A DNA stretch of 35,507 nucleotides, taken from a virus. Position numbers and translations under genes: made by a program. The notes beneath the pieces are model-generated. The model had not been told where the DNA came from. It saw only the letters and a program-made list of their open reading frames with translations, and made no database searches. Position 1 is the first letter of the stretch; each line of letters starts with the position of its first letter. Positions 9,878-34,266 of this stretch are shown here, piece after piece. Where the stretch lies: IMG/VR virus record IMGVR_UViG_3300033571_029332, positions 1-35,507 of that record; one strand, written 5' to 3'.

Positions 9878-11509
9878 ATGGCAACATGCAATTTACCATT
9901 TGATGCTAGAAAATATGCCTGTGGGCCAATTGCACAGCCTATGCCGGGTGCCGTAAAAACTCCATTTGTCAATATGATTTTTTTTCAAGGACAACGACAA
10001 GTAACAGTAGGAAACAGATCATCAAATTCATCATCAGTTCAAGGTCTTGAAGATATAGCAAATATTGGAACAGCATTTGTTAAGTCATTTGAATATTCTT
10101 TTTCAAACGGTGTTGGTTGTAAGGCGACTATTGTTGACACCTCAGGAAGCGATTTTGCTAATTTTCTATCGATTATACCGGGAAAAGAATGCAACCAATT
10201 CCAAAGAGATTACGGACAGGTTGCAGTTGAATTTGGTTGGATTTTTCAAGATTGCAATGGTGTCTATCAGAAGTACGGAACAATTGAAGCTTCTTATGAT
10301 GACGCTTTGATCGATGTGACAACTGGTCAAGGGTTTGTTCAAGCTGGAGATTACCTTTGGTTTTTGCTTATGGGCGTTGAAGTGGTTGAAGCTAGAGGAA
10401 TCTGGGAATATCGTCTTAACTTGATTGGGCCAGTAGATGGAAGCGCTCCAAATACTAAGGATGCAAAGCCTATCGGATCAGATGACAACAAAGTTCCTTT
10501 GAAACAAGCTTGTCAAGAAATATTGAAGGAATCTTGCAAGAATTATTTTACACAAAACTCTATAGCAAGAGTTGTTGGTGATGCAGTTGTAAAGTTTGTA
10601 AGAGTGACCAAAAATTTTGTTACAGGTGGCGGTGGAGCAAGCACACAAAGAGTACTTTCAACATTTCAGTTTAAAGGATCAGACGGTGGTGCAGATGGTC
10701 CAAAAAGCGTTTGGGCTCCAGAGCAACAAGATCCACTTAGCGCAATTAGAAAATGGCTAAACTCATTTGAAACTGACAGGAACTTGGGAACATATCTTAT
10801 AACTGATGCAAAAAGTAAAACACCTTCTTTGTATATTATGGAAAATCCAAACGATCCATGTGTATTGACAACTGAATGTGTTGGGCAACAATTCAAGCCA
10901 AAAAAAGTTTATATTGTAAATGGTGGAAATTGCTCACCTGTTATTAGTTTCAACCCATCAATACAGATTTTGTTTTCAGAACCAACGACTAATATCGGTG
11001 CTAACCCAACCGGAATGCAAACTACAAACGGCCAGCCAAACACTGCTACAGGTCCAAATGCGAGTTCCAGTGTAAGTGAAAATAAATGTTACAAAGCTGA
11101 AATGAATCGCAAGGGTCTGGAAACAGCAATGTCAGTGCCCGGATCTAATTTGAACTTTAGGGCTCCAAGTCAAGCCAACCAAAAAGAATTCAAAAGTATT
11201 TGGGCTAATTCGACAGCAAGCAAAATGTATGAAATTACAAACCCTGTTGAAGCCGATTTGGAAATTGAAGGCGATCCAAGATATCTTAATGTTTTAAACA
11301 TGCAGGGTGTTTTCATAGGGATAATTTATCTAAACCCATATGCAATTAGAAATAATCTTGGGGATTGTGATTGGATTGCTTATCCTAATGTCAATGAATT
11401 CTTTTCAAGAACAACATATATGATTCAGGGAGTTTCTCATTCTGTTTCAGAAAGTGGATTTAAGACTACTTTAAAATTATCTTCCGCAATTGCTAACCAG
11501 AGATCATAA
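9878..11509 (+). CDS. baseplate hub protein, gp27-like
   Basis: This 543-residue protein would be the hub connecting the tail tube to the central spike. The C-terminal 90 residues carry the best signature: LEIEGDPRYLNV, then VFIGIIYLNPY, DCDWIAYPNVNEFFS and IQGVSHSVSESGFKTTLKL. This resembles the closing tube-like domain of T4 gp27 and related phage hub proteins. The N-terminal part (residues 60-190) also looks like a tube-type beta domain (FEYSFSNGVGCKATIVD). A Gly/Ser/Asn-rich linker lies at about 370-400. GGAG 5 nt before the ATG is the ribosome binding site. The position directly before the gp5-like spike gene supports the call. It is longer than T4 gp27 (about 390 residues). Confidence 0.78.
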   Translation: MATCNLPFDARKYACGPIAQPMPGAVKTPFVNMIFFQGQRQVTVGNRSSNSSSVQGLEDIANIGTAFVKSFEYSFSNGVGCKATIVDTSGSDFANFLSIIPGKECNQFQRDYGQVAVEFGWIFQDCNGVYQKYGTIEASYDDALIDVTTGQGFVQAGDYLWFLLMGVEVVEARGIWEYRLNLIGPVDGSAPNTKDAKPIGSDDNKVPLKQACQEILKESCKNYFTQNSIARVVGDAVVKFVRVTKNFVTGGGGASTQRVLSTFQFKGSDGGADGPKSVWAPEQQDPLSAIRKWLNSFETDRNLGTYLITDAKSKTPSLYIMENPNDPCVLTTECVGQQFKPKKVYIVNGGNCSPVISFNPSIQILFSEPTTNIGANPTGMQTTNGQPNTATGPNASSSVSENKCYKAEMNRKGLETAMSVPGSNLNFRAPSQANQKEFKSIWANSTASKMYEITNPVEADLEIEGDPRYLNVLNMQGVFIGIIYLNPYAIRNNLGDCDWIAYPNVNEFFSRTTYMIQGVSHSVSESGFKTTLKLSSAIANQRS

Positions 11510-11511
11510 CC

Positions 11512-13548
11512 ATGGCAGATCAAAAAGGTCAAAAAGTTTTAAAACAAAAACAGTCAATCTACGGCATATATCCTGCTTTGTGTATTGATACTATTGATAT
11601 CTATAAACAAAACAGAATTAGATATTTTAGCCCACAGTTGCATGATCCGAATGCACCGTACAAGTCATTGCCATTTGCTTTTCCAATTTCTACTTTTGGT
11701 GGGTTTGATGATAGTGGCTCAACATGGGTTCCACCTGCTGGCAGTACGGTCATGTTGCTATTTGAAGCTGGCAATAGATCTGTAGCATATTATTTAGGCA
11801 CGACTTGGAGCCGTGATCGTGGGCCTGATGGAAGAAACAGGTTTCCGATTCCAATACCTGAATACGCACAGCTTTACCAAGGCAAAAGGAATGGCTATCT
11901 TTGTGGCCCAAACAATGGCTCCCAAGTTTTGCCACCTTGGAATACTGAAAGTTATAATGGATTTGATATAACCAGTGTCGCTGATTTAGAGCGATCTCCA
12001 AATGCTGCGGCGAGAATAACATATCCCAACATTTATGGTTTCAAAACACCTGAAAAGCATATGGTCAAAATGGTTGACGGAGATGCTAAATGTAACCGTA
12101 AGTGGAAGCGCCTTGAGATAATGTCGGGAAATGGCAACTGGATGATATTCAAGGATGATCATTTACACTATGCAGGTCAATGGGCACATCCAGATTGTGG
12201 TGTCAGAAATGGAGATACAAGCTGTATTGCTGGACTTCCAAATCCAGAGCCACGAAGTACAGAAGATATTACGGCTATCGCAACATATGTGAATGCAGAC
12301 ATAGTAGAACAGCCAGTTGACATTTTAAATTTCAATGGACAACAAATTGTCGAAACAACTCCCGGTTCCTCGGTGTGTGGAGGAACAACTATAGGTGGCA
12401 ATCCTGATTATCCCGGCAAAGAATCGCAGGTTGGATCTAATCCTTTTTTCAAAAACATGAATGAGTGTAGGCCTTATAAAGGTCCGCAAACTCCACAAAA
12501 CAACAGATGTGATCTGCCACAGACAGGCATACAATTGCTTTCAATATCTGGCCATACTTTTGTTATGGACGATTCTGTAAAAGATCCACAGGGTAACATG
12601 GAGTGGTCAAGAAGCACAAGGCCATTTGATTTTGGCTGCACAGACATGTATCTCGGCAGAAGTTATTGGAAATCAGCAACCGGCCACAGCATCGAGTTAA
12701 ATGACATGGAAAAGGGTGGAGACACCAAGCAGGTTAGAGGCCCAAATAATGGCATCAAGCTAAAGACAGCTTTGGGTAATGAAATATTCATGTGTGATGA
12801 TAGTGAGGGACCGCAGTGTCCTTCTCCTGCAACTCCAAATCAAGGGATTTTGATTAGGAGTACCAGCAATAATTTCCTAAGAATGTCCGATGGTGGAAAC
12901 AAGAGGCAGATTCCTTGCAGAAAAGAAGGTGGAGTGCCTATTAACAGGGCAAGCAAAGCTTATATAGTCATGCGTACTGGCTACGGTCTTTCATTTGACA
13001 TGGTCGATAATGGAACGCAGGAAAAAACAGCCAACCAATATATGAGACTTGTTTCTCCACAGACTGATAATAAAGAAAGAGGTCCGCACTTTCTTTTATT
13101 CAGTGAAAATCCATCTGGACCGGGTACTGTTTATTTGAGAAGTGGTGGAAACTTTATCAATATTACAACGGATACGAGTGTTGAATATGTTGGTTATAAG
13201 CAAAAAGACGGAAAACTTGAGGAAGCAAAAAGCAGTAAGGTTACATTTATTTCAGACACCCAGTATGAGAGTGTTAAAAATCTTAGTTACAAAGCTGCCA
13301 ACAGGATCTTTTGCAACGCTGAACAGGATATTATGTTGCTTTCTGGCAGGGATTATCAATTACCTCCAGACAAAGATGGGAAACCACAAGGCAAAGGGCC
13401 GGGTATTTTCCCTGTCGTAATATTTGCTCCTAGTAAAGATGGTGGTGGTGTACTCAAAATAAGCGATAGATTATTTGCGAGTTGTTCTCCAGATGCGCCA
13501 ACAGTTTCCATATATAACCTAAGACCATATGTTAATCCGAAAAAATAA
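11512..13548 (+). CDS. central spike protein, gp5/VgrG-like, without visible lysozyme domain
   Basis: This is a 678-residue cell-puncturing spike. Residues about 10-105 form the OB-fold domain of gp5, gpV and VgrG, with the pattern LPFAFPISTFGG, WVPPAGSTVMLLFEAGN and YYLGTTW. Further on there are repeated beta-hairpin units in which Gly-His/Asn is followed by a hydrophobic strand and Asp: GHTFVMDD (about 347), GHSIELND (about 392), GNEIFMCDD (about 423). These resemble the needle-like beta-helix or OB repeats of spike proteins. No glycosidase domain like that of T4 gp5 (E-x8-D/C-x5-T) was recognised, so cell-wall opening may rely on another protein. It starts 2 nt after the hub gene stop. Confidence 0.8.
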   Translation: MADQKGQKVLKQKQSIYGIYPALCIDTIDIYKQNRIRYFSPQLHDPNAPYKSLPFAFPISTFGGFDDSGSTWVPPAGSTVMLLFEAGNRSVAYYLGTTWSRDRGPDGRNRFPIPIPEYAQLYQGKRNGYLCGPNNGSQVLPPWNTESYNGFDITSVADLERSPNAAARITYPNIYGFKTPEKHMVKMVDGDAKCNRKWKRLEIMSGNGNWMIFKDDHLHYAGQWAHPDCGVRNGDTSCIAGLPNPEPRSTEDITAIATYVNADIVEQPVDILNFNGQQIVETTPGSSVCGGTTIGGNPDYPGKESQVGSNPFFKNMNECRPYKGPQTPQNNRCDLPQTGIQLLSISGHTFVMDDSVKDPQGNMEWSRSTRPFDFGCTDMYLGRSYWKSATGHSIELNDMEKGGDTKQVRGPNNGIKLKTALGNEIFMCDDSEGPQCPSPATPNQGILIRSTSNNFLRMSDGGNKRQIPCRKEGGVPINRASKAYIVMRTGYGLSFDMVDNGTQEKTANQYMRLVSPQTDNKERGPHFLLFSENPSGPGTVYLRSGGNFINITTDTSVEYVGYKQKDGKLEEAKSSKVTFISDTQYESVKNLSYKAANRIFCNAEQDIMLLSGRDYQLPPDKDGKPQGKGPGIFPVVIFAPSKDGGGVLKISDRLFASCSPDAPTVSIYNLRPYVNPKK

Positions 13549-21196: not shown

Positions 21197-22189
21197 ATGG
21201 CAAAAAGTAAATTAACATCATACGATCTTGGATATGTTTCTGGTGATCTATCAATCTATCCACAAGCTATTGATAGCTATGAAAATTTGTATGAAGCAAA
21301 AAATTTAGCAGCTACAAAATTAACACAAAATTTTGGCTTTAATAGTACAATCATGGTTGTTGATGATACAACCAACTTTCCACCGCAAGGCATAGTTCGT
21401 TTGGCTTCATCAACAGCAGAGGGTCTTACAACCGAACTGGTTTATTATTACAAGAAAACAAATAATACATTTCAAGATTTGCTTCGTGGATTTTGTTCAA
21501 CCAGACAAAGCCCTTGGCCTGCAAATACCAAGGTTGAAGCAGGTGTTATGGCTGAACATCATAACGCTTTGAAAGATTCTATCCTGCAATTAGAAGCCAA
21601 CCTTGGCACAGCAGATGAAATATCAACAACTACATTAAATGGTTTGTTGAAGCAACAGGAAGCAAGATATCTAAGTCCTAAAGCTTTATTTAGGGGATTC
21701 CCCTTGCGTGGAACAGCCCCGCTCACTGTTAATTTTCACAACTTCAGTTCTTCTGTTGCAACCCGATTTTTCTGGGACTTTGGAGATGGTGGAACTTCTT
21801 TTGAAAAAAACCCAACGCATACTTATCTTACTGAAGGAAATTTCAGCGTACAGCTAAGAGTTATCACAGAACTTGGTGGACAGGGTTTTTCAACTAAAAG
21901 TAGTTACATACAGGTTTCCAATGAATATGTAGAACCTTTCTTTTATGTGACTCCAACTACTGGTACAACTTCAACTGTTTTTACTTTTGTTGATCAAACA
22001 GAAGCAAGAATATCAAACAGATTGTGGCAATTTGATGATGGAACAAATTATTTTGCTGTCGATCCAAACGAACATGTAACAACACATACTTACAGCAAAA
22101 AAGGCACTTACAATCCTTCAATATTGATTGGCTTGGAAGGGCAGCAAGTACTTAGAGTCTTTACTACGCAGTCAATTACGGTGAATTGA
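21197..22189 (+). CDS. fibre paralogue 1: attachment module plus two PKD domains
   Basis: This 330-residue protein is the first of four consecutive paralogues. Residues about 8-128 are the shared N-terminal module: YENLYEAKN, a strand region TIMVVDDTTNFPPQGIVRL, YYYKKTNN, then VMAEHHNALKDSI. A PKD domain follows at about 160-240 (PLTVNFHNFSS, FFWDFGDGG at 191-199, HTY near 208). A second, more divergent one lies at 248-330 (WQFDDG at 277-282, HTY near 297). PKD domains are Ig-like beta-sandwiches used as spacers or adhesins in surface proteins. It probably lacks a distal receptor domain, so it may be a base or linker fibre. No ribosome binding site is obvious. Confidence 0.72.
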   Translation: MAKSKLTSYDLGYVSGDLSIYPQAIDSYENLYEAKNLAATKLTQNFGFNSTIMVVDDTTNFPPQGIVRLASSTAEGLTTELVYYYKKTNNTFQDLLRGFCSTRQSPWPANTKVEAGVMAEHHNALKDSILQLEANLGTADEISTTTLNGLLKQQEARYLSPKALFRGFPLRGTAPLTVNFHNFSSSVATRFFWDFGDGGTSFEKNPTHTYLTEGNFSVQLRVITELGGQGFSTKSSYIQVSNEYVEPFFYVTPTTGTTSTVFTFVDQTEARISNRLWQFDDGTNYFAVDPNEHVTTHTYSKKGTYNPSILIGLEGQQVLRVFTTQSITVN

Positions 22190-22190
22190 G

Positions 22191-24428
22191 ATGATACCAG
22201 AAATCACTTTTCCTAGTGCATATGATACAGACACAACTCTTTACACTGTAAAAGACTCTGCCTATCTTGTTTTAGCCCAAGATTACAATCCGGGTGATAC
22301 AACAATAACCGTTGAGCTAGATACACAAAAAATACAACTTTTTCCACAGACAGGAATAATAACACTAACAGAACAATGCTCGGATCCAAAATATAGGGCT
22401 TTATCTTTTTATTATACCAGTAGAACTGATACGGTTTTTTCAGGTTTAACAATTTTAGACAGCAGTTTAGATCATTACAAACCAAGCCGTATGACAACCG
22501 TTGTCATGAATGTCATGGCACAGCACCACAACAATATAAAAGATGCAGTAATTGCTATTGAAAATTTTGTTGGCAAAAAAGATCTTCCCGGTAGTTATTC
22601 TACAGTCAATACAGGAAAGCTTGAGGAAAGAACAAACTTTCTGATTACCAAGGCTTTCGAACCAAAAGCATGGTTTTCGGTTGACAAAAGAATAGGATTA
22701 GCTCCTTTTACCGTAACATTCAATAATTTATCTGTCAGGCTTGGGGATAATATACCAAACAATAATGTTGAGTTTTTTTGGGATTTTGGAGATAATACTT
22801 GTAGTGTAATAAATTACTATCAAGCAACAGATGTTGTCCCATCAAATGTTGATTGCGTAATTGTTGAGGATCTTGATGGTGGAACTATAACAAAAACATA
22901 TACACAACCGGGAACCTATACTGTCAAATTGACAGCCGTAAATAATTATGGATCAGATACTGTAACATTCACAGATCTAATTAATGCGAAATATACCGCT
23001 CCCGATGATGCTGTTGTTCAATACACTCCTCAACAAATACAACAAGTTGTAAATGGAACATTTAAAACTCCGACAAATCTTGCTGTCATCTTAGGTATTC
23101 CTGCTGGGATAAACCCATCAACCGGCAGGACATATTCAGGTGAAGAGGTTGATGGACAAGGAAATCCAATAGACCCTGTAATTAAATGGACATGGTTATT
23201 GTCAGATGATACAAATCATGGCAATGATCAGAATACTACAGCTTTCTATACAATAGGAGGAATTTACGATGTTGTTGTTCGTGTTGACACAGAAAGTCAA
23301 GCGTTCAGGATTACAACATACAATTCATATCTTAATGTTATAGAAAGACAAAACCTTTGGTTGTCAACATTTTTGGGAAGCTCGAACACAACAATTCAAA
23401 GTTCAGAATTTGGCATAATAAGTGAAACATTCAAGGCAAAACAACTCACACCATATGGCCTTGATAGAACTACTGTTTTTCTTAATTCGGAGAGCAATAA
23501 AGATCAACTGATACGAGAGTTCAAAAAGAATACCACATTTGCTTCCAAGGCAAATATTGTTTCAGGACTATCTGGTACAGCAATTATGCATTACGCTACT
23601 GGACGAAGCAGCGGTGTGATTGCAGATGAAAAAATTAAAGCTGTTGAATATAATGGATTTTTAGAAACATATTCTTTGTTTGCTACAATTACAAGACCTT
23701 GGAACTGGGTTGGATTTAATTTTTTAAACAAGGTTTATTTTATTCTTGGTAATTTAACTACTGCTCAAACTCCATTCAATTCTCTTACAAATCTTAATTT
23801 ACAAACTCATGATTTAATTAATAACACAGTTGCTAGTACAACACTCTCTGCTGGAGATTTTATTGGTGGTGCCTCTGCATTACTAAGTAATGCTGCTGAT
23901 TTTGATGGCTCTGGCAATCCAATATATGGTAATTTCAGTGCCTACCGATATGCTTGGAGAAACCGTAAGGGATATGTTATTAAAAATAATGGTGTTGGGT
24001 CTTTTTTCCAGATTAAATCATTTTTCTCTACGAATGAGTCTCCAACTAATGCTGTAGCAAGTTTTAATAAGTTGCCTGATATTCTAGGTCCAACAAAATA
24101 CGAAGGGAATCTTGTTAATCTTGCAAGTGGACTGTTCTTTTTCAACAACACAGGAGCCATATCTTCATTTGATACGACAACAAATGTGTGGAAAACAGGT
24201 GGTCCGGGTCTTAACTCAAATACTTTTTTAGCACTTCAAGATACAACCAAGACAGATTTTGACAATGATACAAATACTCTGCTTGCAACAACAGATTTAG
24301 ATAGAAAAGCATATCTGAGTTTTGACTACACAGATGATTCTTTTATAAAATTCAATGATTTGGATCTAACATTTACTAAATTACCTGCAAGACCTTCCGG
24401 AAATCAATGGAATTTTGGTACTTTTTGA
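22191..24428 (+). CDS. fibre paralogue 2: attachment module, PKD domains and beta-rich C-terminus
   Basis: This is a 745-residue protein. Residues about 8-128 are the shared module: SAYDTDTTLYTVKDSA, the G-I-I-T-L strand, YYTSRTD, AQHHNNIKDAVIAIENFVG. A PKD domain at about 160-270 carries an insertion (FFWDFGDN at 205-212, TKTYTQPGTYTVKLTAVN). A second PKD-like region at about 310-400 contains WTWLLSDD and GGIYDVVVRV. The C-terminal 350 residues are beta-rich with Asn/Phe/Thr repeats such as KVYFILGN and GLFFFNNTGAIS, possibly a beta-propeller, but no Kelch GG pair repeats are clear. It starts 1 nt after the preceding stop. The N-terminal similarity to its neighbours supports a common attachment site on the virion. 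Confidence 0.72.
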   Translation: MIPEITFPSAYDTDTTLYTVKDSAYLVLAQDYNPGDTTITVELDTQKIQLFPQTGIITLTEQCSDPKYRALSFYYTSRTDTVFSGLTILDSSLDHYKPSRMTTVVMNVMAQHHNNIKDAVIAIENFVGKKDLPGSYSTVNTGKLEERTNFLITKAFEPKAWFSVDKRIGLAPFTVTFNNLSVRLGDNIPNNNVEFFWDFGDNTCSVINYYQATDVVPSNVDCVIVEDLDGGTITKTYTQPGTYTVKLTAVNNYGSDTVTFTDLINAKYTAPDDAVVQYTPQQIQQVVNGTFKTPTNLAVILGIPAGINPSTGRTYSGEEVDGQGNPIDPVIKWTWLLSDDTNHGNDQNTTAFYTIGGIYDVVVRVDTESQAFRITTYNSYLNVIERQNLWLSTFLGSSNTTIQSSEFGIISETFKAKQLTPYGLDRTTVFLNSESNKDQLIREFKKNTTFASKANIVSGLSGTAIMHYATGRSSGVIADEKIKAVEYNGFLETYSLFATITRPWNWVGFNFLNKVYFILGNLTTAQTPFNSLTNLNLQTHDLINNTVASTTLSAGDFIGGASALLSNAADFDGSGNPIYGNFSAYRYAWRNRKGYVIKNNGVGSFFQIKSFFSTNESPTNAVASFNKLPDILGPTKYEGNLVNLASGLFFFNNTGAISSFDTTTNVWKTGGPGLNSNTFLALQDTTKTDFDNDTNTLLATTDLDRKAYLSFDYTDDSFIKFNDLDLTFTKLPARPSGNQWNFGTF

Positions 24429-24455: not shown

Positions 24456-27400
24456 TTGGCTGCTCTGTTTCCACCTCAAGTAAAGTACCCTCAAGATTAC
24501 GACACAAATCGTACCTTGTATGAAGTATTCAACACAGCAGAAACAGTTCTTTCAGCTGACCTAGAAACATGGGCGACATCAATACAGATAGTTCCTGTTG
24601 CTGCCACAGAAGATGATCTTTGGTCGGACAATGGCTTTATTACAATTAGCGATGAGCTTATTTATTATGATGCAGTTTCAAGGGATGGCAACGGCAAGGT
24701 TGTTGCCTTATGGGACTGCATAAGAAACCTAGGTGGCAAACCGCCACAATACAACTCTGCCGGAACAGATGTTCGTGGATTTGTTATTGCAGAACACCAT
24801 AACCAGATTGCAAGAGCAATAGTCAATGCAGAAAATTTTGTAGGAATAAACTTATCAGAAGATAAAAAAACTCTTGATTGGAGAATAAGAAATCTTGCCA
24901 ATCAAGGTCCAATAATTGACGACTATGGTTGTCCAGAAGTGGATTTCAGCTATTACATTATTTCACAAGATCCGTCCGCTGGAACAACCATTCAATACAG
25001 CCTGAATATTACAGGTGTTTTTGATAGTTTCATTATCGATTTTGGTGATGAGCAAACAACAACGACAGTTACAGGCGGTACACATACTTACGCAGCAAAT
25101 GCTTTTGTTGATCCAATCGTCACAGTAACTGCAACAAACTGTGAAACGGTTATAAGCGGCATAAAAAGAGACCAAATAAATAAGCCTTTGAACCAACAAG
25201 TTGCCATTGACTTCAATGTCGTTGTTCCAACAGTTCCAGATGCTCCTGTTTTAGAAACGCCTTTTGTAAACACAGTAAATAATCAGCTTGTATTGCCGCC
25301 AATTGTATTCCCTTGCATAGACGCAAGTTTTGGTCCAATTAGTGTGCCTTCCGTAATTAACATAACTCCCCCATTAGTTGTCCCAAGTGTTGTTAATTTC
25401 GTAAACTCTCCTCAAATACCAAGCAATATTGTAATAAGCCCTGTAAGCATTCAATTGCCTAGTTTAATCTATGTTGAAGGCGTTTGCTCACCAATACCTC
25501 CAACACCTCTGCCACCTATACCAGTTCCTCCTGTCCCGCCTGTGCCACCTACACCGCCTACACCCGTACCTCCTACACCCGTACCTCCTACGCCTATACC
25601 TCCTACACCCGTTCCTCCAACACCTATAACTCCAACGCCTATAACTCCAACGCCTATAACTCCAACGCCTATAACTCCAACGCCTGTTCCTCCTACGCCT
25701 GTACCGCCAACGCCAGAACCAGTGCCGCCAAGTCCTGTACCTCCAGCACCCGGTCCTCCGTTCCCTCCAAGTCCTGTGGCTCCGGGTCCATTCCCAACGC
25801 CAGTACCTTGGCCACCGGCTGTCCCACCACCGTACCCTCCATCACCAATACCTCCATCACCGCCTGTTGGTGCACCATATAGCTGTTATCAGTATGGTTA
25901 CTTTGCTGCCGGTTCATCGGACGGCACAAACTGTGTAACATCTGTTTACAGGATTAATTTCGCAGATGATTCTATTAGCAGCAGCATGGGAAGTCTAAGT
26001 GTTGCAAGACAAGCCATGGCTAGTGTTTGCGGTGCAATTACAAGAGGATATTTTATTGGTGGCATAAAAACTGATACAACAATAATAAAAACAACAGATA
26101 TTTTCAATTATTCAACTGAAAATTCTGGTGCCAAAACTACTGCCGATCTTGTAACACAAAGGTATGGAACAGCTGGTATATCTAATGGTTTATATGCTGG
26201 GTATATTGGTGGTGGTAATACTGCTGCTGGACAATATGTAAGTTCAATTGAAAGGCTTTTGTACAGCACAAATACCATGAGCACAGGCCAAACACCTACT
26301 CTAACAGATCCAAGAGTTGGTTTGTTTGGCTCAGATGGAAGTTATCGATACGGATATTTTGCTGGAGGCTTGTCTTCAGCATATACGAGTAGATATGAAT
26401 ATATTGCTTATCAATCTGAGACTCCAATTAACTTGGGACCATCTGTTTTAGGTGGAGCAAGAGCATATGCGGGTGGCTGTTCAGGAACAGAAGGCAAAGG
26501 ATATTTCAGCGGAGGATATTCTTCGACATATTCAAATTATACAGATATTTTATTCCATGCAAACGCAACAATAAATGCAAAAACTACTGCGCTTCTTGCG
26601 AGAGCCGTTACGGGCGCTGCTGGAATGACAAACCGTGATAGCCGTGGTTATTTTGCTGGAGGAGAAACAACAGGAGTTGTTGTAACAAATGCTACAGATA
26701 TCATGATGTATGATATTGATGCTGCATTTGCCGGTCTTACTACATTGGTTGCAAACAGAGTAAACATGGGTGCAATATCCAAATTGTGCCGTTATCTTCC
26801 CGGTACTGCTGGATATTTTGCTGGTGGGTCTTACGATTATGACGGATTTACATCATCTTATTCAAGTACGACAGACAAGATAGTTTTTGATTATGATACA
26901 ACTTTGGCTATGACTACAGCCAATCTTTCAATCCCAAGAGAAGCAGTTGCAAGCGTATCTGGCAACGATTATCGTGGTTATTGGAGTGGTGGTTATCTAG
27001 ACAGTTTCTCTCAAATTACAGACAGGATTTTCTACAGTACGGAATATACTGGAGCAGTTGGCAGTGCAGCATTAACTGAAGGAACACATGGTGCATGTGG
27101 TGTAACACAAGGCGACTTTAAAGGATTTATATCTGGCGGTTATAGAAAATCTGGCTCTGTAACAACAGATAAAACATTTAAAATAACTTATGCATCTCCA
27201 GAAGCTATTTCTGCTGTTACTACTGCAAATTTGGATGAACCTATTTCCTACATGGCATCAATAACAAACAACCTTTATAAGGGCTACTTTGCCGGTGGCA
27301 TTAACGAAGTTGTAAGATATGGAAGTGTAAGAGTTTTAGTTTATTCCAACAATACACTTTATGCGTTGGCATCTAAAAATCTTACAAGGACAGTATCAGA

Positions 27401-30400
27401 ACTTGCAGGATTAGATGCAGACAATACTAAAGGATATTTTGCAGGTGGAGATACAAGTCCTTATGGATCATCTACAAGAATAGACAAGTTTGATTTTTCA
27501 ACTGACACAATATCTGCATCAACTAATAGTGATCAAAATTTGCCAGCACCAAGGACAGGCTTAGGTGCTGTTTCAGAAAGGGTTTCCAAGGGTTATTTTG
27601 CTGGCGGATCCTCATCAGTTTTAGTTGATAGTTCTACATGTAGCAAAATTACTTTCTCCACAGATGTTGTATCAGCAAATGATAAAGGTAATCTAACACA
27701 AGCAAGAACTTATGTTGGCTCAGTATCTCCAGTTATTCGACCAGCTTTGTCAGGACCGGGAGCCTACTTTACTGGCGGTTACAGCAGTACTTTGCCAACA
27801 ACACTGACTGAGAAAATAGTATATCAAGATGATATAAGTTTTTATATTGCAAGTGCCAATCTTACTAGAAGAAGAGCGTTTTCTGCAAGCGTTAGTGAAA
27901 GTGAATATTATGGTTATTTTTGCACTGGCAACATGGCTGAGTGGGGTAGCAATTTAAATACAATAACATTAGAATATATTGACTATTCTACGGATGTAAG
28001 CGGACAAATTACATCAACATTCATAGGACAAAAAAGATCAGCTTTAGCTGGATGTACTGGTAATGACAGTTTTGGTTATTTTGCTGGTGGACAGACAAAC
28101 ATATTCAGTAGCAGGCTAGACAAATTTACTTACGATACAAACATATGTTCAGCAGTATCAACAGAAGAACTTGATCCAGCTAGAGCTTACTTGGCTGGTC
28201 TATCAGACGGTTACGCTAAAGGATATTTTGCCGGTGGCGTAAGCACAAATCCTGTCGCATCTGTGAATCAAATTCAGTTTGCAACTGATACATTGGATCT
28301 TCTTGACACCACATCCCTTTTAGCTGGTCCTAGATGGGGTCTGGCTGGGAGTGATGGTGATAATAGTACTGGATATTTGGCTGGTGGTGTTTTAGGTGGA
28401 AATATTGCTGGGACATTAGAGGGTATTTCTTATTCAGGAGGTGTTGTTGTAAATCTTGGATCAGCTTCTCTTTCAACTCCAAGATACAATCTTGCAGCAG
28501 CAACTGATGGAGAATCCAAAGGATATTTTTCTGGTGGTTCGACTAGCCGTTATGATCCTACAGGGATGGTAAAAATAACTGATAGAATATTTTATGGAAG
28601 CGATATAGTTGATGCTGTAGGACCGGCAACTCTTACTATTGGTCGATCTGGACTTGTTGCTGCTTCTGGAGCAAGAAATCTGTTGCCACCACCACAATGC
28701 GGCGATTTGCAATTATCTAAAGATAAATCCTATGACGCAAGAACATTTGATTACATTTCTGCCGAAGGTTACATAGATTTCGCATATAATTCATACACAA
28801 GTCCTGACAGGTTTGTTGTAGCTGATTCAAATGGAACTGTTTACTTTGATAGTGGATATGCAGGAACAACTCTTGCAGATTGTCCGGGTTCTATTAGCGG
28901 CCTTTCCAGAGCTAGCGCAACGGTTACATTCAAAAAACCTTCTGGTGTAAAAAGAATAGTAGTCACGGTATATTCACCTTGTATATCTAAAGGATGGGAA
29001 TATACACTTAGCTGCTTGGAAACAAATGTTTACATAGCAGGTTCTGATTATACCAATACCTTGTCACAATACGGCAAGTACGGTGTTTTCACGGAATTAG
29101 CACCAACAAAAACAAATCTACAAAACCATTATGCAATAGATGCAGATGGTAATTTATATTTAAGCGCTTATTTGGCTTCAGGTGATGATAAGTGGACATT
29201 TTTAGATAGTGGTGTGTGGACTAGTATCGCAGTTGGAGAAACTCATTTTTGTGGAATTAAAAATGTTATAAATGGACCTGATAGTCAATGCTATGTGCAA
29301 GGTGGTAATGTTTACGGTCAACTTGGTTTGGGAACCAATGAAGATAGACAAAGTCTTACTGGTGCTGGAGGTGGATCTAGAGCACACTGCGGAGATTTTT
29401 CAACAGCTTTGATTTACACTGATGGAAGTTTAGCAGTTACTGGTTTGAACAACTACGGTCAGCTAGGTATTGGAAGCACACAAAATATCAATCAATTTCA
29501 AACTGGTATTTTAGGTGGATTATTATTTGTGTCTGCTAGTGGATTTACTACATTTATCATTAATAGTACATACAAACTTTATGCTACTGGAGTTAACTCA
29601 GCAGGGCAACTTGGTCTAAACAGTACTGATAATCAAAGCGAACTAACACAAGTTGGATCTAAAGATTGGTTGTTTGTTTCCGCTGGTAATGTTCACACTA
29701 TGGCAATTGATACATCTGGCAAATTGTGGGCTACAGGTGGAAATGCACAAGGACAGCTAGGATTAAACGATACAAATGCAAGAAGCGCCTTTACACAGGT
29801 TGGCACAGCTACTAATTGGAAATGGGTGTCTTGTGGTGATCAGTTTACTATGGCAATTAAGAACGATGGATCATTATGGGCTACTGGAAACAATACAAGT
29901 GGTCAATTTGGAAATGGCTCAACTGCTAGCACAAGCAATTTTGTTCAAGTCGGCAATAAAAAATGGTTGAAAGTTTATGCATTAACAAGTAAAACCATGG
30001 CTATTAGAGATGTTGGTGCAATAGATTACACAATTCCTCCTGCTCCTTCACCGACATTTGTTTGTATCATGAAGCCACTTAATATTGAACCTGAAACTTA
30101 TAGTGGTGTGACATATAGTGTTTCTTCTTATAACAATACATCGTTTAGTAAAGATGGGTATACTGATACATTACTTCTTGGATGGTATCAAGCCGGTTAC
30201 TTCACAATAAGCTTTAGTTCTCCACAAAATAATGTAATTATAAGATGGTCAGGATCCGGATATGCGGGTGCAGATTGTAGAGAACAGTTTATTTTTACTA
30301 CTTCTTCGGGAAATCCAATACTTGAATTAATTCCTACAGATCTTTGGTATTCTGAAGCAAATGGAAACAGTTTGGTTTCAGGAATTAATGTTCCTTTAAA

Positions 30401-31079
30401 TGAGCCAGATCCAAGCTGGTATGGCTGTGGAAGAGGTTATGTTCGTGTAAAAGCAACATCGTCATATACATCTATAACCATAACTACAGGATATGGTGTT
30501 AACTGTTATGGTTCAATTTTTTATCTTTGTGTAGATTCTTTAAGAGATCCCCAAGTAGGATTTGCAGCAGCCCAAAACATTTTATCAATCGAAAATCATC
30601 AAACAACAGAAACGGTTCTCCCTGTAGAAATAACAAGAACTCAGGTTTGCCGTCATGCTCACAAGGTGCCTTTACAGATGGTTAATAGCTATCATGGTGA
30701 GATTCCAATTAGGCGTTGTGACATTTATGGATTCTGTTCCCATACTGCCAAGCTTCCTGAAAGGCCAGAAGTTTATTGCTGCCAAAATTGTCCAGATTAC
30801 TCCGCAGATGAATACAACAACCAACTTGTTTATGCAGTTGACAACAAGGAAAAAACTGTAAGTGTCACACCTATAAATAACAATTTGGAACCAGAAGAAA
30901 AATCTATTAGCAAAGAAATACCATACAAAAAAATAAATAACTTTGATATTCCAACTCCACAAACAGTTGAATTGGAATATAAAGATTTGAATGATGAAGC
31001 CATCAGGGAAATAAATGGGTTTAAAATTGTTCCTAAAGAAGAAATAAAACCTGATGTAGATGAATTGCTTGGAGAATAA
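24456..31079 (+). CDS. giant fibre paralogue 3: PKD, proline stalk, three six-bladed Kelch-like propellers, RCC1-like repeats, Cys/His domain
   Basis: This is a 2207-residue fibre or adhesin. The TTG start is supported by AAGGAT 6 nt upstream and by alignment with paralogue 4 (start AALFPPQVKYPQDYDTNRTL against PIFPPNSVYPIDYDTNRTL). Domains in order: shared module 10-130 (AEHHN at 112-116); PKD-like 150-235 (FIIDFGDE, HTYAANA); a VPS/IPS beta repeat 265-345; a proline-rich stalk 345-472; 18 Kelch-like repeats with GYFAGG-type turns 481-1404; a beta domain 1408-1522; RCC1-like repeats 1523-1856 (five GQLG/GQFG turns and one variant); another beta domain 1870-2015; a Cys/His-rich segment about 2062-2115; and a charged tail. 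The propellers and RCC1 repeats probably bind host surface structures. Its stop shares its last base with the next start. Confidence 0.8.
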   Translation: MAALFPPQVKYPQDYDTNRTLYEVFNTAETVLSADLETWATSIQIVPVAATEDDLWSDNGFITISDELIYYDAVSRDGNGKVVALWDCIRNLGGKPPQYNSAGTDVRGFVIAEHHNQIARAIVNAENFVGINLSEDKKTLDWRIRNLANQGPIIDDYGCPEVDFSYYIISQDPSAGTTIQYSLNITGVFDSFIIDFGDEQTTTTVTGGTHTYAANAFVDPIVTVTATNCETVISGIKRDQINKPLNQQVAIDFNVVVPTVPDAPVLETPFVNTVNNQLVLPPIVFPCIDASFGPISVPSVINITPPLVVPSVVNFVNSPQIPSNIVISPVSIQLPSLIYVEGVCSPIPPTPLPPIPVPPVPPVPPTPPTPVPPTPVPPTPIPPTPVPPTPITPTPITPTPITPTPITPTPVPPTPVPPTPEPVPPSPVPPAPGPPFPPSPVAPGPFPTPVPWPPAVPPPYPPSPIPPSPPVGAPYSCYQYGYFAAGSSDGTNCVTSVYRINFADDSISSSMGSLSVARQAMASVCGAITRGYFIGGIKTDTTIIKTTDIFNYSTENSGAKTTADLVTQRYGTAGISNGLYAGYIGGGNTAAGQYVSSIERLLYSTNTMSTGQTPTLTDPRVGLFGSDGSYRYGYFAGGLSSAYTSRYEYIAYQSETPINLGPSVLGGARAYAGGCSGTEGKGYFSGGYSSTYSNYTDILFHANATINAKTTALLARAVTGAAGMTNRDSRGYFAGGETTGVVVTNATDIMMYDIDAAFAGLTTLVANRVNMGAISKLCRYLPGTAGYFAGGSYDYDGFTSSYSSTTDKIVFDYDTTLAMTTANLSIPREAVASVSGNDYRGYWSGGYLDSFSQITDRIFYSTEYTGAVGSAALTEGTHGACGVTQGDFKGFISGGYRKSGSVTTDKTFKITYASPEAISAVTTANLDEPISYMASITNNLYKGYFAGGINEVVRYGSVRVLVYSNNTLYALASKNLTRTVSELAGLDADNTKGYFAGGDTSPYGSSTRIDKFDFSTDTISASTNSDQNLPAPRTGLGAVSERVSKGYFAGGSSSVLVDSSTCSKITFSTDVVSANDKGNLTQARTYVGSVSPVIRPALSGPGAYFTGGYSSTLPTTLTEKIVYQDDISFYIASANLTRRRAFSASVSESEYYGYFCTGNMAEWGSNLNTITLEYIDYSTDVSGQITSTFIGQKRSALAGCTGNDSFGYFAGGQTNIFSSRLDKFTYDTNICSAVSTEELDPARAYLAGLSDGYAKGYFAGGVSTNPVASVNQIQFATDTLDLLDTTSLLAGPRWGLAGSDGDNSTGYLAGGVLGGNIAGTLEGISYSGGVVVNLGSASLSTPRYNLAAATDGESKGYFSGGSTSRYDPTGMVKITDRIFYGSDIVDAVGPATLTIGRSGLVAASGARNLLPPPQCGDLQLSKDKSYDARTFDYISAEGYIDFAYNSYTSPDRFVVADSNGTVYFDSGYAGTTLADCPGSISGLSRASATVTFKKPSGVKRIVVTVYSPCISKGWEYTLSCLETNVYIAGSDYTNTLSQYGKYGVFTELAPTKTNLQNHYAIDADGNLYLSAYLASGDDKWTFLDSGVWTSIAVGETHFCGIKNVINGPDSQCYVQGGNVYGQLGLGTNEDRQSLTGAGGGSRAHCGDFSTALIYTDGSLAVTGLNNYGQLGIGSTQNINQFQTGILGGLLFVSASGFTTFIINSTYKLYATGVNSAGQLGLNSTDNQSELTQVGSKDWLFVSAGNVHTMAIDTSGKLWATGGNAQGQLGLNDTNARSAFTQVGTATNWKWVSCGDQFTMAIKNDGSLWATGNNTSGQFGNGSTASTSNFVQVGNKKWLKVYALTSKTMAIRDVGAIDYTIPPAPSPTFVCIMKPLNIEPETYSGVTYSVSSYNNTSFSKDGYTDTLLLGWYQAGYFTISFSSPQNNVIIRWSGSGYAGADCREQFIFTTSSGNPILELIPTDLWYSEANGNSLVSGINVPLNEPDPSWYGCGRGYVRVKATSSYTSITITTGYGVNCYGSIFYLCVDSLRDPQVGFAAAQNILSIENHQTTETVLPVEITRTQVCRHAHKVPLQMVNSYHGEIPIRRCDIYGFCSHTAKLPERPEVYCCQNCPDYSADEYNNQLVYAVDNKEKTVSVTPINNNLEPEEKSISKEIPYKKINNFDIPTPQTVELEYKDLNDEAIREINGFKIVPKEEIKPDVDELLGE
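25563..25712 (+). repeat. 15-bp tandem repeats encoding P-(V/I)-(P/T)-P-T units
   Basis: Ten consecutive 15-bp units encode pentapeptides PVPPT, PIPPT or PITPT. The four central units (25623-25682) are identical at DNA level (CCTATAACTCCAACG); the outer ones differ at third positions and in V/I and P/T choice. They form the core of the proline-rich stalk (25490-25875). Identical central copies point to recent expansion by slippage or recombination, and any change in copy number stays in frame. Confidence 0.9.
25896..28665 (+). repeat. 18 coding Kelch-like repeats (three blocks of six)
   Basis: This region of the giant fibre gene holds 18 repeats of roughly 48-53 codons, each opening with a GYFAGG-type turn and containing a T-D-x-I strand and an L-x-x-x-R-x-x-x-A/G helix-turn. 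Blocks start at 25896, 26811 and 27762. After repeats 6 and 12 the usual K-G-Y-F join is replaced by linkers (SKLCRYLPGTA and SPVIRPALSGPGA), and after repeat 18 by ARNLLPPPQ. They are coding repeats, diverged at DNA level, not a CRISPR array. Confidence 0.8.
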
Positions 31080-33340
31080 TGCCTATATTTCCACCAAATA
31101 GTGTTTATCCAATAGATTACGATACAAATCGTACATTGTTTCAGGTTTATAACACTACTGAAACTACAATTACATCTGATTTAGCAGCATGGGCAACGAC
31201 AATTTACATTGAACCAGTTAATGCTACAGACGAAGAACTATGGGCCACAAATGGATTTGCAACAATCAGCGGTGAACTTGTTTATTACGATGATGTTTCA
31301 ACTGATGCTAATGGAAAAATTGATACATTATTGAATTGTGTCAGAAATCTTGGTGGCAAACCACCACAGTTTAACCCTTCTGGAACAGATATCAGAAGTT
31401 TTGTTTTGGCTGAACATCACAATAATCTTGCTAGATCAATTGTAAATCTGCAAAACTTTGTAGGAATAAATTTTTCTGAGAACAAAATAACATTAGATTG
31501 GAGAATTAGAAACCTCGTCAATCAACCAGATATTTCTGATGATTATGGATGCCCTCAAGTAAACTTTACATATTACACAACTAGCACTGATCCTCTTTTC
31601 GGAACAGTTATAGAATATCAATTAGAAATTATTGGAGTATACGAATCTTTTACAATAGAATTTGGCGATAATACCATAGAAACTGCAAATTTAACAGGAA
31701 CACATACCTATCCTCCAAACAGCACAATAGATCCTACAGTATCAGTAATTTCTTCTGTTTGCACAACGACAAATAGTGGAATTGCCCGTGATGCAACAAA
31801 TGAACCTGTTCTTGGTGCTGGTCCAGAAGAGCTTAATGTGACATTATCAGATATACCACCAATTCAGGATCTAAATGTACAGTTTGCAGAGGACATATCT
31901 GCCAATGTAAACTTACCTCCAATTGTTTTTCCATGTTTAGACATTGGTCCTTTTGGTCCAATTTCCATTCCATCAACAATTGTTATTGATCCACCTGTTA
32001 TTATTCCTAGCGAGGTTGTATTCAGCAATATTCCTGTAATACCATCACTTATATCCGTGAGTCCTGTAAGTGTTGTTGTTAGTGGAGATCAGTTTATTGA
32101 CTTGGTTTGTGTTCCTATAGGTGGAGCAGGTTTGAATTATTATGGTTTTTTAGTTGGTGGTGCTATAAACAATGTGCAAACAGCTATTGCTGACAAAGTT
32201 GCTTATAAAACTGATACCGTAAGTTCTTCAACAACTGCTGCAATAACAGGAAGCCCAAGATTTGGTGCAGGAACCTTTAGCAATTCTACACATGGTTATA
32301 TTTGTGGAGGAAATACATCTTCCTCTAACACGGCATCAAGCGTATATAGACTAATTTTTGCAACGGAAACCACTGAGTCTTATGGAAGCATAAACCTAAG
32401 TCAAGCGAGAACATATTCATCTGGCTTGTCTAATAACGATTCAAAAGGATATATTGCAGGAGGTATATCTGGTGGAAGCGTAAGTAGAATCATCGACAAA
32501 CTAATTTATTCAACTAATAGCATGGGTGCTAGCACAAGCTTGCAGCTTGCAACCGCAAGATATGTCCATGCAAGTGTATCACAAAGAAGTGATAAGGGTT
32601 ATTTTTCTGGCGGTATAACAGGCTCCAATGCTGCAATTGTTAATACGGAATTATTACAATTTGCAAGTGACACTTTGTTAGGCAAAACAACGGATGAGCT
32701 TAAGGTTGGCCGAGAAAGACATACAGGTCTGGATGGAAATAACGAACAGGGATATTATGGTGGTGGTAGAACAAATGTTGTTTCAACAACAATTTTAAAA
32801 AGCTTGGAAAAAATGCATTTCCCAAGTGATTCTACTGTAGCTTTATATGTTGAATTAACTGCTGGAAGAATTAATGCTGGCGGTTTGAATGAAGGTAGTA
32901 GCAAAGGTTATTTTGCTGGGGGCAACACAGCTGCATCTACAACAGCAACAACAAATTCTCTAGAAACGCTTCATTACTTGACAGATACCTTTACATCTGT
33001 TGCAACCACATTAAGTTCTGCTAGAACCAACATGGCTTGTTTGTCGCATGTTTATGTCCCTACAGATATTGTGCCGACAGCCTTGAATATTCTAGATACA
33101 GCAGGATTTGTTCCTGCAAACAATGGTTATGAAATGCCGAATGAAGCTTACATGGCTGATGGAGCACAACAGTTTTCAATCAGTTATAATGGTTATGAAG
33201 TGCCTTCGGAGTTTAACCCCATGCCACCAACACCAAATAACGATTTTCAGAAGAGTATGAACGATGTATTCAGAACAGTTAAGGTAAGACTAAAAGATGA
33301 TCAGATACTTCCAAATTTAGTAGATTTAATGGATGATTGA
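31079..33340 (+). CDS. fibre paralogue 4: attachment module, PKD-like domain, one six-bladed Kelch-like propeller
   Basis: This 753-residue protein is the closest relative of the giant fibre. Residues 8-130 are the shared module (YPIDYDTNRTLFQVYNT, LVYYDD, AEHHNNLARSIVNLQNFVG). A PKD-like domain lies at 150-235 (FTIEFGDN, HTYPPNS). At 255-350 there is the VPS/IPS strand repeat, including PPIVFPC and FGPISIPS, also present in the giant fibre. Six GY-x-x-GG repeats span residues about 356-658 (GFLVGG, GYICGG, GYIAGG, GYFSGG, GYYGGG, GYFAGG), one complete propeller. The proline stalk, RCC1-like repeats and Cys/His domain are missing. The C-terminal 95 residues contain two similar NGYEMPNEA and NGYEVPSEF pieces and an acidic end. 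GGAG 4 nt before the ATG is the ribosome binding site. Confidence 0.78.
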   Translation: MPIFPPNSVYPIDYDTNRTLFQVYNTTETTITSDLAAWATTIYIEPVNATDEELWATNGFATISGELVYYDDVSTDANGKIDTLLNCVRNLGGKPPQFNPSGTDIRSFVLAEHHNNLARSIVNLQNFVGINFSENKITLDWRIRNLVNQPDISDDYGCPQVNFTYYTTSTDPLFGTVIEYQLEIIGVYESFTIEFGDNTIETANLTGTHTYPPNSTIDPTVSVISSVCTTTNSGIARDATNEPVLGAGPEELNVTLSDIPPIQDLNVQFAEDISANVNLPPIVFPCLDIGPFGPISIPSTIVIDPPVIIPSEVVFSNIPVIPSLISVSPVSVVVSGDQFIDLVCVPIGGAGLNYYGFLVGGAINNVQTAIADKVAYKTDTVSSSTTAAITGSPRFGAGTFSNSTHGYICGGNTSSSNTASSVYRLIFATETTESYGSINLSQARTYSSGLSNNDSKGYIAGGISGGSVSRIIDKLIYSTNSMGASTSLQLATARYVHASVSQRSDKGYFSGGITGSNAAIVNTELLQFASDTLLGKTTDELKVGRERHTGLDGNNEQGYYGGGRTNVVSTTILKSLEKMHFPSDSTVALYVELTAGRINAGGLNEGSSKGYFAGGNTAASTTATTNSLETLHYLTDTFTSVATTLSSARTNMACLSHVYVPTDIVPTALNILDTAGFVPANNGYEMPNEAYMADGAQQFSISYNGYEVPSEFNPMPPTPNNDFQKSMNDVFRTVKVRLKDDQILPNLVDLMDD

Positions 33341-33372: not shown

Positions 33373-34266
33373 ATGAGCACACATAAAGCAACTATAAGAA
33401 GGTTGCCTGTACTTAATGCCCAAGGAAAAAGGGAAGATGTTGTTTTAAGAATTGATTCAAATAAAAATGAATACATGAAAGTTGATAATTACTGGATCAG
33501 GAATTTTTCAAAAACAAATGTTGTTCCAAAAGATATAAACAATCTTTATGATGATTCAGATATCAAAGTAATAATAGAAAATGAAATTAAAAATGAAAAA
33601 TTAACAGCACCAAATCTTCTTGAAGAAAATATTTATTTTGATGATGTTTTAATTATTTCTGATGGATTGGGATTTAATGATCATAAAAATTTACTACAAG
33701 ACATTAGGAGCAATGTTTGTGTTATTGCGCTTAACAAAACTATGGTTTTTTGGGAAGCTATAAAATTCCCAGATTTTTATTTAATATCAAGTCCGTTTGA
33801 AAATTGTTTGGCAGATATACCGAAAAAAGGATATCCAAAATTAATTGCTAGCAGAAGAACATGTCATAAATTCATAAGTGCATACAGAAATGTAATATAT
33901 TTTTATGATCCTACATGCGATGATAAATATAAAAGCCCAGTAGCAAAAAATTCATCAATTTACATAGATGAATATAGAAATCCAATATGTGCAGCCCTGA
34001 ATTGTTCTTTTAATTTTAGAGCAAAAAACATATATTTAGCATATTGTTCTGATGGGTACAAAGCTCACAGACCGGGCTGTATCAGTGTTGATGAAAATTC
34101 ATTTTGTTATCCACAGCAACAGTTAGCAAATAATATTGTCAACGCAAATATTTTTTGGAATAAATTTTCTAATCCAAACAATAACATTTATTACACAGGA
34201 ATTAAAAATTCATTTTCATTTGCTAAATATGTTGAAAGTGATGATTTTAGGAAACTAATAAGTTAG
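33373..34266 (+). CDS. DUF115/Maf-like protein (possible glycosyltransferase-type enzyme)
   Basis: In this 297-residue protein, residues about 90-230 resemble the DUF115/motility accessory factor group. They contain DVLIISDGLGFNDHKNLL (a G-x-G-type first loop), VCVIALNKTMVFWEAIKFPDFYLI (the 'ALN...PDFYL' part), then KLIASRRTC and NIYLAYCSDGYK. Such proteins are linked to glycan transfer onto flagella and capsules or to pterin chemistry. The N-terminal 60 residues are a separate small basic domain. Gly-Pro-Ser, usual in the first loop of DUF115, is replaced here by DGLGF. It lies just after the fibre array, so modification of fibres or host sugars is a possible role. The upstream TTAGG may be a weak ribosome binding site. 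Confidence 0.42.
   Translation: MSTHKATIRRLPVLNAQGKREDVVLRIDSNKNEYMKVDNYWIRNFSKTNVVPKDINNLYDDSDIKVIIENEIKNEKLTAPNLLEENIYFDDVLIISDGLGFNDHKNLLQDIRSNVCVIALNKTMVFWEAIKFPDFYLISSPFENCLADIPKKGYPKLIASRRTCHKFISAYRNVIYFYDPTCDDKYKSPVAKNSSIYIDEYRNPICAALNCSFNFRAKNIYLAYCSDGYKAHRPGCISVDENSFCYPQQQLANNIVNANIFWNKFSNPNNNIYYTGIKNSFSFAKYVESDDFRKLIS

Follow-up and report, generated by a model that had tools for sequence, protein, structure and literature searches.

Predicted tandem six-bladed Kelch-like propellers in a giant protein, probably a tail appendage, of a contractile-tailed phage

Introduction

Baseplate proteins whose beta-propellers have an established or suggested role at the receptor include the phi11 receptor-binding protein and PhiKZ gp131C (PMC4901313). 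The Kelch protein CBB_552 is reported in virions of the jumbo phage vB_PcaM_CBB, a large myovirus (PMC5259590), and RCC1-like proteins (phrog_4219) were found in virions of phage W70 by mass spectrometry (PMC11370258). Phages with Kelch or RCC1 proteins are already known, and the giant propeller protein described here (hereafter G) is a variant within the family phrog_19111. G and its shorter paralogue P are encoded in IMG/VR record IMGVR_UViG_3300033571_029332, of which the whole stretch analyzed, 35,507 nucleotides (nt), is referred to as the window. G carries three consecutive blocks of six Kelch-like repeats (K1, K2 and K3) and, downstream of these, an RCC1-like propeller.

CBB_552 is a Kelch-type propeller in a virion, as we propose for G; a tandem triplet and a shared anchor are not reported for CBB in the accessible part of its description, and the Kelch-like CBB entries in BFVD comprise 265–285 residues with 14–16% identity. 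Structural matches among viral proteins also include some named virion structural protein, from PhiPA3, Noxifer and Phabio. The RCC1-like proteins of W70 are separate, whereas that part of G is fused behind three Kelch blocks, and, unlike G, phi11 and PhiKZ gp131C have five- and seven-bladed propellers without a six-bladed triplet. With the Kelch domains of KLHL3, KLHL12 and Keap1 (PDB 5nkp, 6ttk, 1zgk) and with SAKe6, the window repeats share six blades of about 50 residues, the GG turn and a template modeling (TM) score of about 0.9; they differ in the absence of the conserved Trp, the low identity (16–21%), the viral tail context and the occurrence of three in tandem. The marine viruses AG-345-O18 and AG-345-L05 encode proteins of about 1000 residues with 6+6+6 repeats, and S-SKS1 has 6+6 repeats across a frame break, but these are distant (25–29% identity), and neither the RCC1 part nor the AEHHN anchor of G was seen in them. 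Finally, phrog_19111 covers the repeats of G and P; PHROG itself gives it no function or fold, and we read it here as six-bladed Kelch-like arrays.

No tandem propellers of phage tails were found in the literature covered, which takes in few subscription journals. Within this incomplete coverage, six-repeat arrays of up to five rings, a fused arm of three Kelch propellers and one RCC1 propeller, and phrog_19111 as a six-bladed family were all absent.

Repeats almost always occur in multiples of six

The propeller genes and their Kelch-like blocks are:
24456–31079, + strand: giant propeller protein G, an open reading frame (ORF) of 2207 residues with a TTG start
25896–26795, + strand: Kelch-like block K1 of G, six repeats, residues 481–780, low model confidence
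26811–27743, + strand: Kelch-like block K2 of G, six repeats, residues 786–1096, predicted local distance difference test (pLDDT) about 89, Kelch matches in the PDB
27762–28676, + strand: Kelch-like block K3 of G, six repeats, residues 1103–1407, pLDDT about 77
31079–33340, + strand: paralogue P, 753 residues, with anchor, PKD-like domain, one Kelch block and a short conserved C-terminal tail
32144–33058, + strand: Kelch-like block of P, six repeats, residues 356–660, pLDDT about 92, TM 0.91 to the KLHL3 Kelch domain

Eighteen GYFAGG-type turns are present in G, starting at residues 481, 531, 582, 633, 682 and 731 (K1), 786, 841, 890, 943, 993 and 1046 (K2), and 1103, 1153, 1207, 1256, 1306 and 1356 (K3); P has exactly six, within residues 356–610. 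A hidden Markov model (HMM) built on the 24 window repeats and iterated over relatives recovers the identical 18 and six, at 25–53 bits each. Consecutive HMM matches are separated by three residues throughout the blocks, by nine at the joint between repeats 6 and 7 and by about ten between repeats 12 and 13, and the joins in G widen only after repeats 6, 12 and 18. The initial annotation, made from the window alone, had counted the same 18 repeats, divided them into three blocks of six starting at residues 481, 786 and 1103, assigned six repeats to the neighboring paralogue and assumed a common repeat unit, all of which the turn count and the single HMM bear out; its coordinates, 25896–28665 (residues 481–1403), are right within a few residues.

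The grouping was then compared across relatives, referred to below by locus labels (L). Querying IMG/VR with the four window blocks as an alignment (A6) gave 65 loci; searches with the whole P protein and with an L116 block added nothing new. The gene pair with 18 and six repeats recurs in two close relatives, L116/L125 and L127. Seventy ORFs on viral contigs were complete, non-redundant and carried five or more repeats; of these, 63 contain a multiple of six, namely 6, 12, 18, 24 or 30 repeats in 10, 37, 10, 5 and 1 ORFs, respectively. The median start-to-start gap is 61.5 residues past every sixth repeat, where it never falls below 54, and 49 past the other repeats. The seven exceptions include a single gene split over two frames, which counts as two of them (L126; 8 and 9 visible repeats); four suggest a missed repeat (a gap of about 100 residues in L181 and L188; one repeat short at the C-terminal end in L144 and L154), and the last, L145, is irregular. 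In L065, L118, L121, L128 and L135, six-repeat blocks are set apart by other domains or by long linkers rich in proline or threonine. The multiples of six and the widened sixth joins therefore exclude chance as the source of the grouping, and these comparative counts are the strongest evidence that six is real.

The blocks are predicted to form Kelch-like propellers

AlphaFold, run on the 753-residue P with an alignment of 37 rows, modeled the Kelch block at a pLDDT of about 92. Foldseek matched this block to the Kelch domains of KLHL3, KLHL12 and Keap1 and to the designed six-bladed SAKe6, mostly with TM (target) scores of 0.85–0.92 over about 310 columns. In a second model, covering all three blocks of G (residues 476–1412), the pLDDT was about 89 for K2, 77 for K3 and 55 for K1, the low value of K1 probably arising because most alignment rows landed on K2; PDB matches to this model were again mostly single Kelch domains. 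In a PDB search that used only sequence, a profile built from all four window blocks retrieved human KLHL12 at 3e-7. Closed six-bladed rings, as the initial annotation had expected from structure prediction, are thus well supported by the models, with high confidence for the P block and K2 and moderate confidence for K3, and are presumed for K1.

In a Kelch propeller, blades of four strands each close into a ring, and the repeats, about 44–56 residues long, have a double-glycine turn following a hydrophobic strand. The window repeats are spaced by 49–57 residues and 22 of the 24 retain the GG turn, with one Gly changed in repeats 1 (YFAAG) and 14 (YFCTG). Downstream of the GG turn, where Kelch repeats have a conserved Tyr/Trp pair, an aromatic residue (Y/F/H) is kept at column 21. 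The canonical Kelch Trp is absent from columns 24–30 of all 24 window repeats and from 99.7% of the repeats of relatives. The window repeats do not reach the Pfam Kelch cut-offs (PF24681, Kelch_1/3/4/6; best 22.8 bits versus 50), and NCBIfam gave no match, whereas some relatives pass the Pfam thresholds: L155 with PF24681 (87 versus 50), and L006 and L190 with Kelch_3 (36 and 25.6 versus 22). We therefore refer to the repeats as Kelch-like. The repeats belong to phrog_19111 (PHROGs v4, 'unknown function'), which matches G at 7.1e-57, P at 3.8e-19, S-SKS1 at 8e-245 and L155 at 3e-261. This family thereby gains a fold and a plausible role.

Evolution of the blocks

The initial annotation had regarded the propeller as a duplicated unit of which G gained two copies, with repeats grouping by position within a block. 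Such grouping was not recovered: in-register similarity over the four window blocks is at chance level, both for single sequences (p = 0.15) and with three orthologues averaged per repeat (p = 0.17, rank 47 of 216 rotations); a variant of the test with centring also gave little signal or none. Whole-unit duplication, in which one propeller was copied and G gained two copies relative to P, draws some support from K2, K3 and the P block, which are weakly in register at a nominal p of 0.007 (a subset chosen post hoc, rotation-corrected p = 0.21), and from 68 related ORFs, in which the in-register alignment is best for 28 of 108 block pairs versus 18 expected (p = 0.01), although identity is raised on average by no more than 0.5%. 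Between G and P, the anchors share 54% identity (64% across columns 1–150), whereas identity in the Kelch parts is no more than background (about 28%). Furthermore, K1, K2 and K3 are each one-to-one orthologous to blocks of L116/L125 with 100% support, and the triplet is also found in L127; the triplet is therefore older than the split of these genomes. On balance, we consider a gain of two whole copies by G unlikely. Repetition of a whole Kelch block at the DNA level was looked for and none was visible, the repeats being recognizable in the protein only.

Blades of L118 share about 65% identity, whether compared inside one block or across blocks, irrespective of their position. We infer that blades turn over singly but that whole rings alone survive, so that totals remain multiples of six: blades would be gained, lost and homogenized one at a time, and only whole sets of six would persist because each ring must close. 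The natural rings form a series, with a blade identity of 80% in the near-symmetric ones and about 27% in the diverged ones, of interest for the evolution of closed-repeat proteins under a whole-ring requirement. L164, L141 and L174 contain natural six-repeat blocks with a blade-to-blade identity of about 80%, like designed symmetric propellers.

Organization of G and its genomic context

From its N-terminus, G comprises an anchor, a PKD-like domain, a proline-rich stalk, K1–K3, a spacer, the RCC1-like ring, a variable module and a Cys-rich tail. The additional features of G and of the surrounding genes are:
24456–24905, + strand: N-terminal anchor domain of G with AEHHN motif, also present in three neighboring genes
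24918–25160, + strand: PKD-like domain of G, motif FGD...THTY
25491–25886, + strand: proline-rich stalk of G, about 130 residues with PTP/PPT repeats and 72 Pro, 15-nt DNA repeat
28695–29024, + strand: spacer domain of G with Kelch and RCC1 parts on either side, 43%/28% identity to L125/L127
29028–30041, + strand: RCC1-like propeller of G, about seven repeats by eye, matched by Pfam and phrog_7220
30063–30575, + strand: variable C-terminal module of G, 20–25% identity to relatives
30633–31079, + strand: Cys-rich conserved C-terminal tail of G, last residues DELLGE, 45% identical in L127
13978–15531, + strand: baseplate wedge protein (gp6/J-like), phrog_219 at 1.7e-33, 47% to the huge phage LR756511
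21197–22189, + strand: neighboring gene with the anchor domain of G and PKD domains, phrog_2885 match
22191–24428, + strand: neighboring gene with the anchor domain of G and PKD domains

AAGGA lies upstream of the TTG start of G; the start codon is TTG at the same place in the L125 orthologue and ATG in L127. The beta domain of P that corresponds to the PKD-like domain (residues 160–233) was modeled by AlphaFold at a pLDDT of about 90. An RCC1-like propeller downstream of the Kelch blocks, already proposed in the initial annotation, was confirmed by Pfam: PF25390 matches at 8e-38, its 131 bits just below the cut-off of 150, and the RCC1 repeat profiles PF13540 (66.5 versus 22) and PF00415 (66.3 versus 21.7) are above theirs; phrog_7220 matches the same part at 1.8e-42. 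Nothing examined here pointed to a trimeric fibre fold, and 'tail arm' or 'appendage' is therefore a safer term than 'fibre'.

Two observations concern the C-terminus. In L116, the closest relative, the Cys-rich tail resides on a separate 844-residue ORF (10230–12764) with a GDSG trypsin-like motif discernible by eye in its N-terminal half; a Pfam scan of this ORF gave no match. Similar short acidic tails (DELLGE, DLMDD, DLLGD) end G and P (30633–31079 and 33250–33340) as well as their orthologues, and might serve as a signal for assembly or processing.

The AEHHN-motif domain is common to four consecutive genes (starting at 21197, 22191, 24456 and 31079), and in the first of these it matches phrog_2885, 'baseplate wedge subunit', at 1.8e-6. 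The gp6/J-like wedge gene upstream puts the propeller cassette in a contractile-tail operon. The gene order around G is kept in many viral contigs and in the 595-kilobase (kb) uncultured phage LR756511, where the G/P slot is occupied by a single propeller-free anchor protein of 674 residues.

Relatives and the exchangeable slot

The initial annotation had called the layout of G unusual, a view that the relatives do not sustain: one search gave ten complete, non-redundant ORFs with 18 repeats, and L117 has two RCC1-like blocks and three Kelch blocks, the last Kelch block partly assigned by eye. As judged from these sequences, the three-propeller layout is recurrent among phages. Multi-propeller tail arms would accordingly be found in relatives of the 595-kb huge phage and in a cyanophage, among others. 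The slot is a site for exchangeable propeller modules; in more distant relatives it holds Asp-box-like repeats together with Kelch blocks (L048 and L065) or the RCC1-like and Kelch blocks of L117. In L048, L052, L057 and L065, many YGNGKFVAV / SxDGxxW (Asp-box-like) repeats follow the PKD gene, ahead of the Kelch blocks, and these proteins apparently form several further propellers.

Conservation varies along G. The anchor shares 72/63% identity with L125/L127, K1 45/40%, K2 71/50%, K3 55/36%, the RCC1 part 52/31% and the C-terminal module 20/25%. Across orthologues, turn and core residues are kept and other positions are variable.

Proposed function

We propose that G forms a giant appendage on the tail of a phage with a contractile tail. 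The N-terminal domain of G would dock on the baseplate, as suggested by the anchor common to four consecutive genes and by the baseplate PHROG match, and the stalk of about 130 residues would present three Kelch-like rings, the spacer, one RCC1-like ring and the C-terminal module; P would be a shorter arm with a single Kelch-like propeller. The propellers would act as rigid discs, most likely as putative multivalent modules that bind the host surface, because the inter-strand loops on such discs can vary without breaking the fold. Overall, we consider it probable that G is a baseplate-anchored adhesin with rigid propellers on a proline-rich stalk. The uneven domain conservation fits an adhesin with host-contacting loops in which K2 is a more constrained disc, and the propeller proteins of phi11 and PhiKZ and the virion proteins of CBB and W70 are precedents. 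A wider proposal, to which we give even odds, is that these proteins constitute a widespread, unrecognized class of phage adhesins with one to five tandem six-bladed propellers, single-blade turnover and ring closure fixing the multiples of six, with G as an arm, from a lineage related to huge phages, that fuses three Kelch propellers and one RCC1 propeller.

Several points weigh against this assignment: (i) uneven conservation also fits relaxed constraint; (ii) anchor-bearing homologues in LR756511 and in other relatives are without propellers, which are therefore not essential to the slot; (iii) baseplate placement relies on the shared anchor and on gene order; (iv) the receptor-binding role of G is one that we infer; and (v) K1 is modeled at low confidence (pLDDT about 55).

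The main rival to receptor binding is structural or protective decoration, in which whisker-like propeller arms would space or shield the tail and bind no specific receptor. CBB, with its Kelch protein in the virion, is reported to bear whisker-like tail structures (PMC5259590), and K2 is conserved nearly like the anchor, as would be the case for a scaffold. However, divergence is fast in K1, K3 and the C-terminal modules, and relatives exchange modules at the same slot, which is more typical of host-contact parts, and we see about one chance in five for decoration. An enzymatic role, with galactose-oxidase-like or polysaccharide-degrading propellers, is improbable: the nearest short Pfam repeat models bear the name 'Galactose oxidase, central domain' and some phage relatives are annotated as galactose oxidase, but the best structural matches are the binding domains of KLHL3, KLHL12 and Keap1 rather than galactose oxidase, non-core residues differ between orthologues and no conserved catalytic set was seen. 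A single large ring or open solenoid of 18 blades, as the almost continuous repeats and the poorly modeled K1 might suggest, is strongly disfavored by the joins widened every six repeats, the strict multiples of six and the separate six-repeat blocks of L065, L118, L121, L128 and L135.

Additional observations

In Synechococcus phage S-SKS1 (L006; 1657–3416 and 4343–6192), a phage grown on Synechococcus WH7803, the Kelch arrays of the public record are interrupted by apparent frame shifts; one array is 6+6 when read across frames, and the annotated hypothetical proteins may be fragments. A scan of genome contigs gave a single weak match, L191 (JAOZKL010000002, a Patescibacteria metagenome-assembled genome, MAG), with short ORFs of four and three repeats, which is possibly a viral contig binned into that MAG. 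An MptE-like protein adjoins the fibre genes in the window (33373–34266), and this arrangement is conserved in LR756511 and L015.

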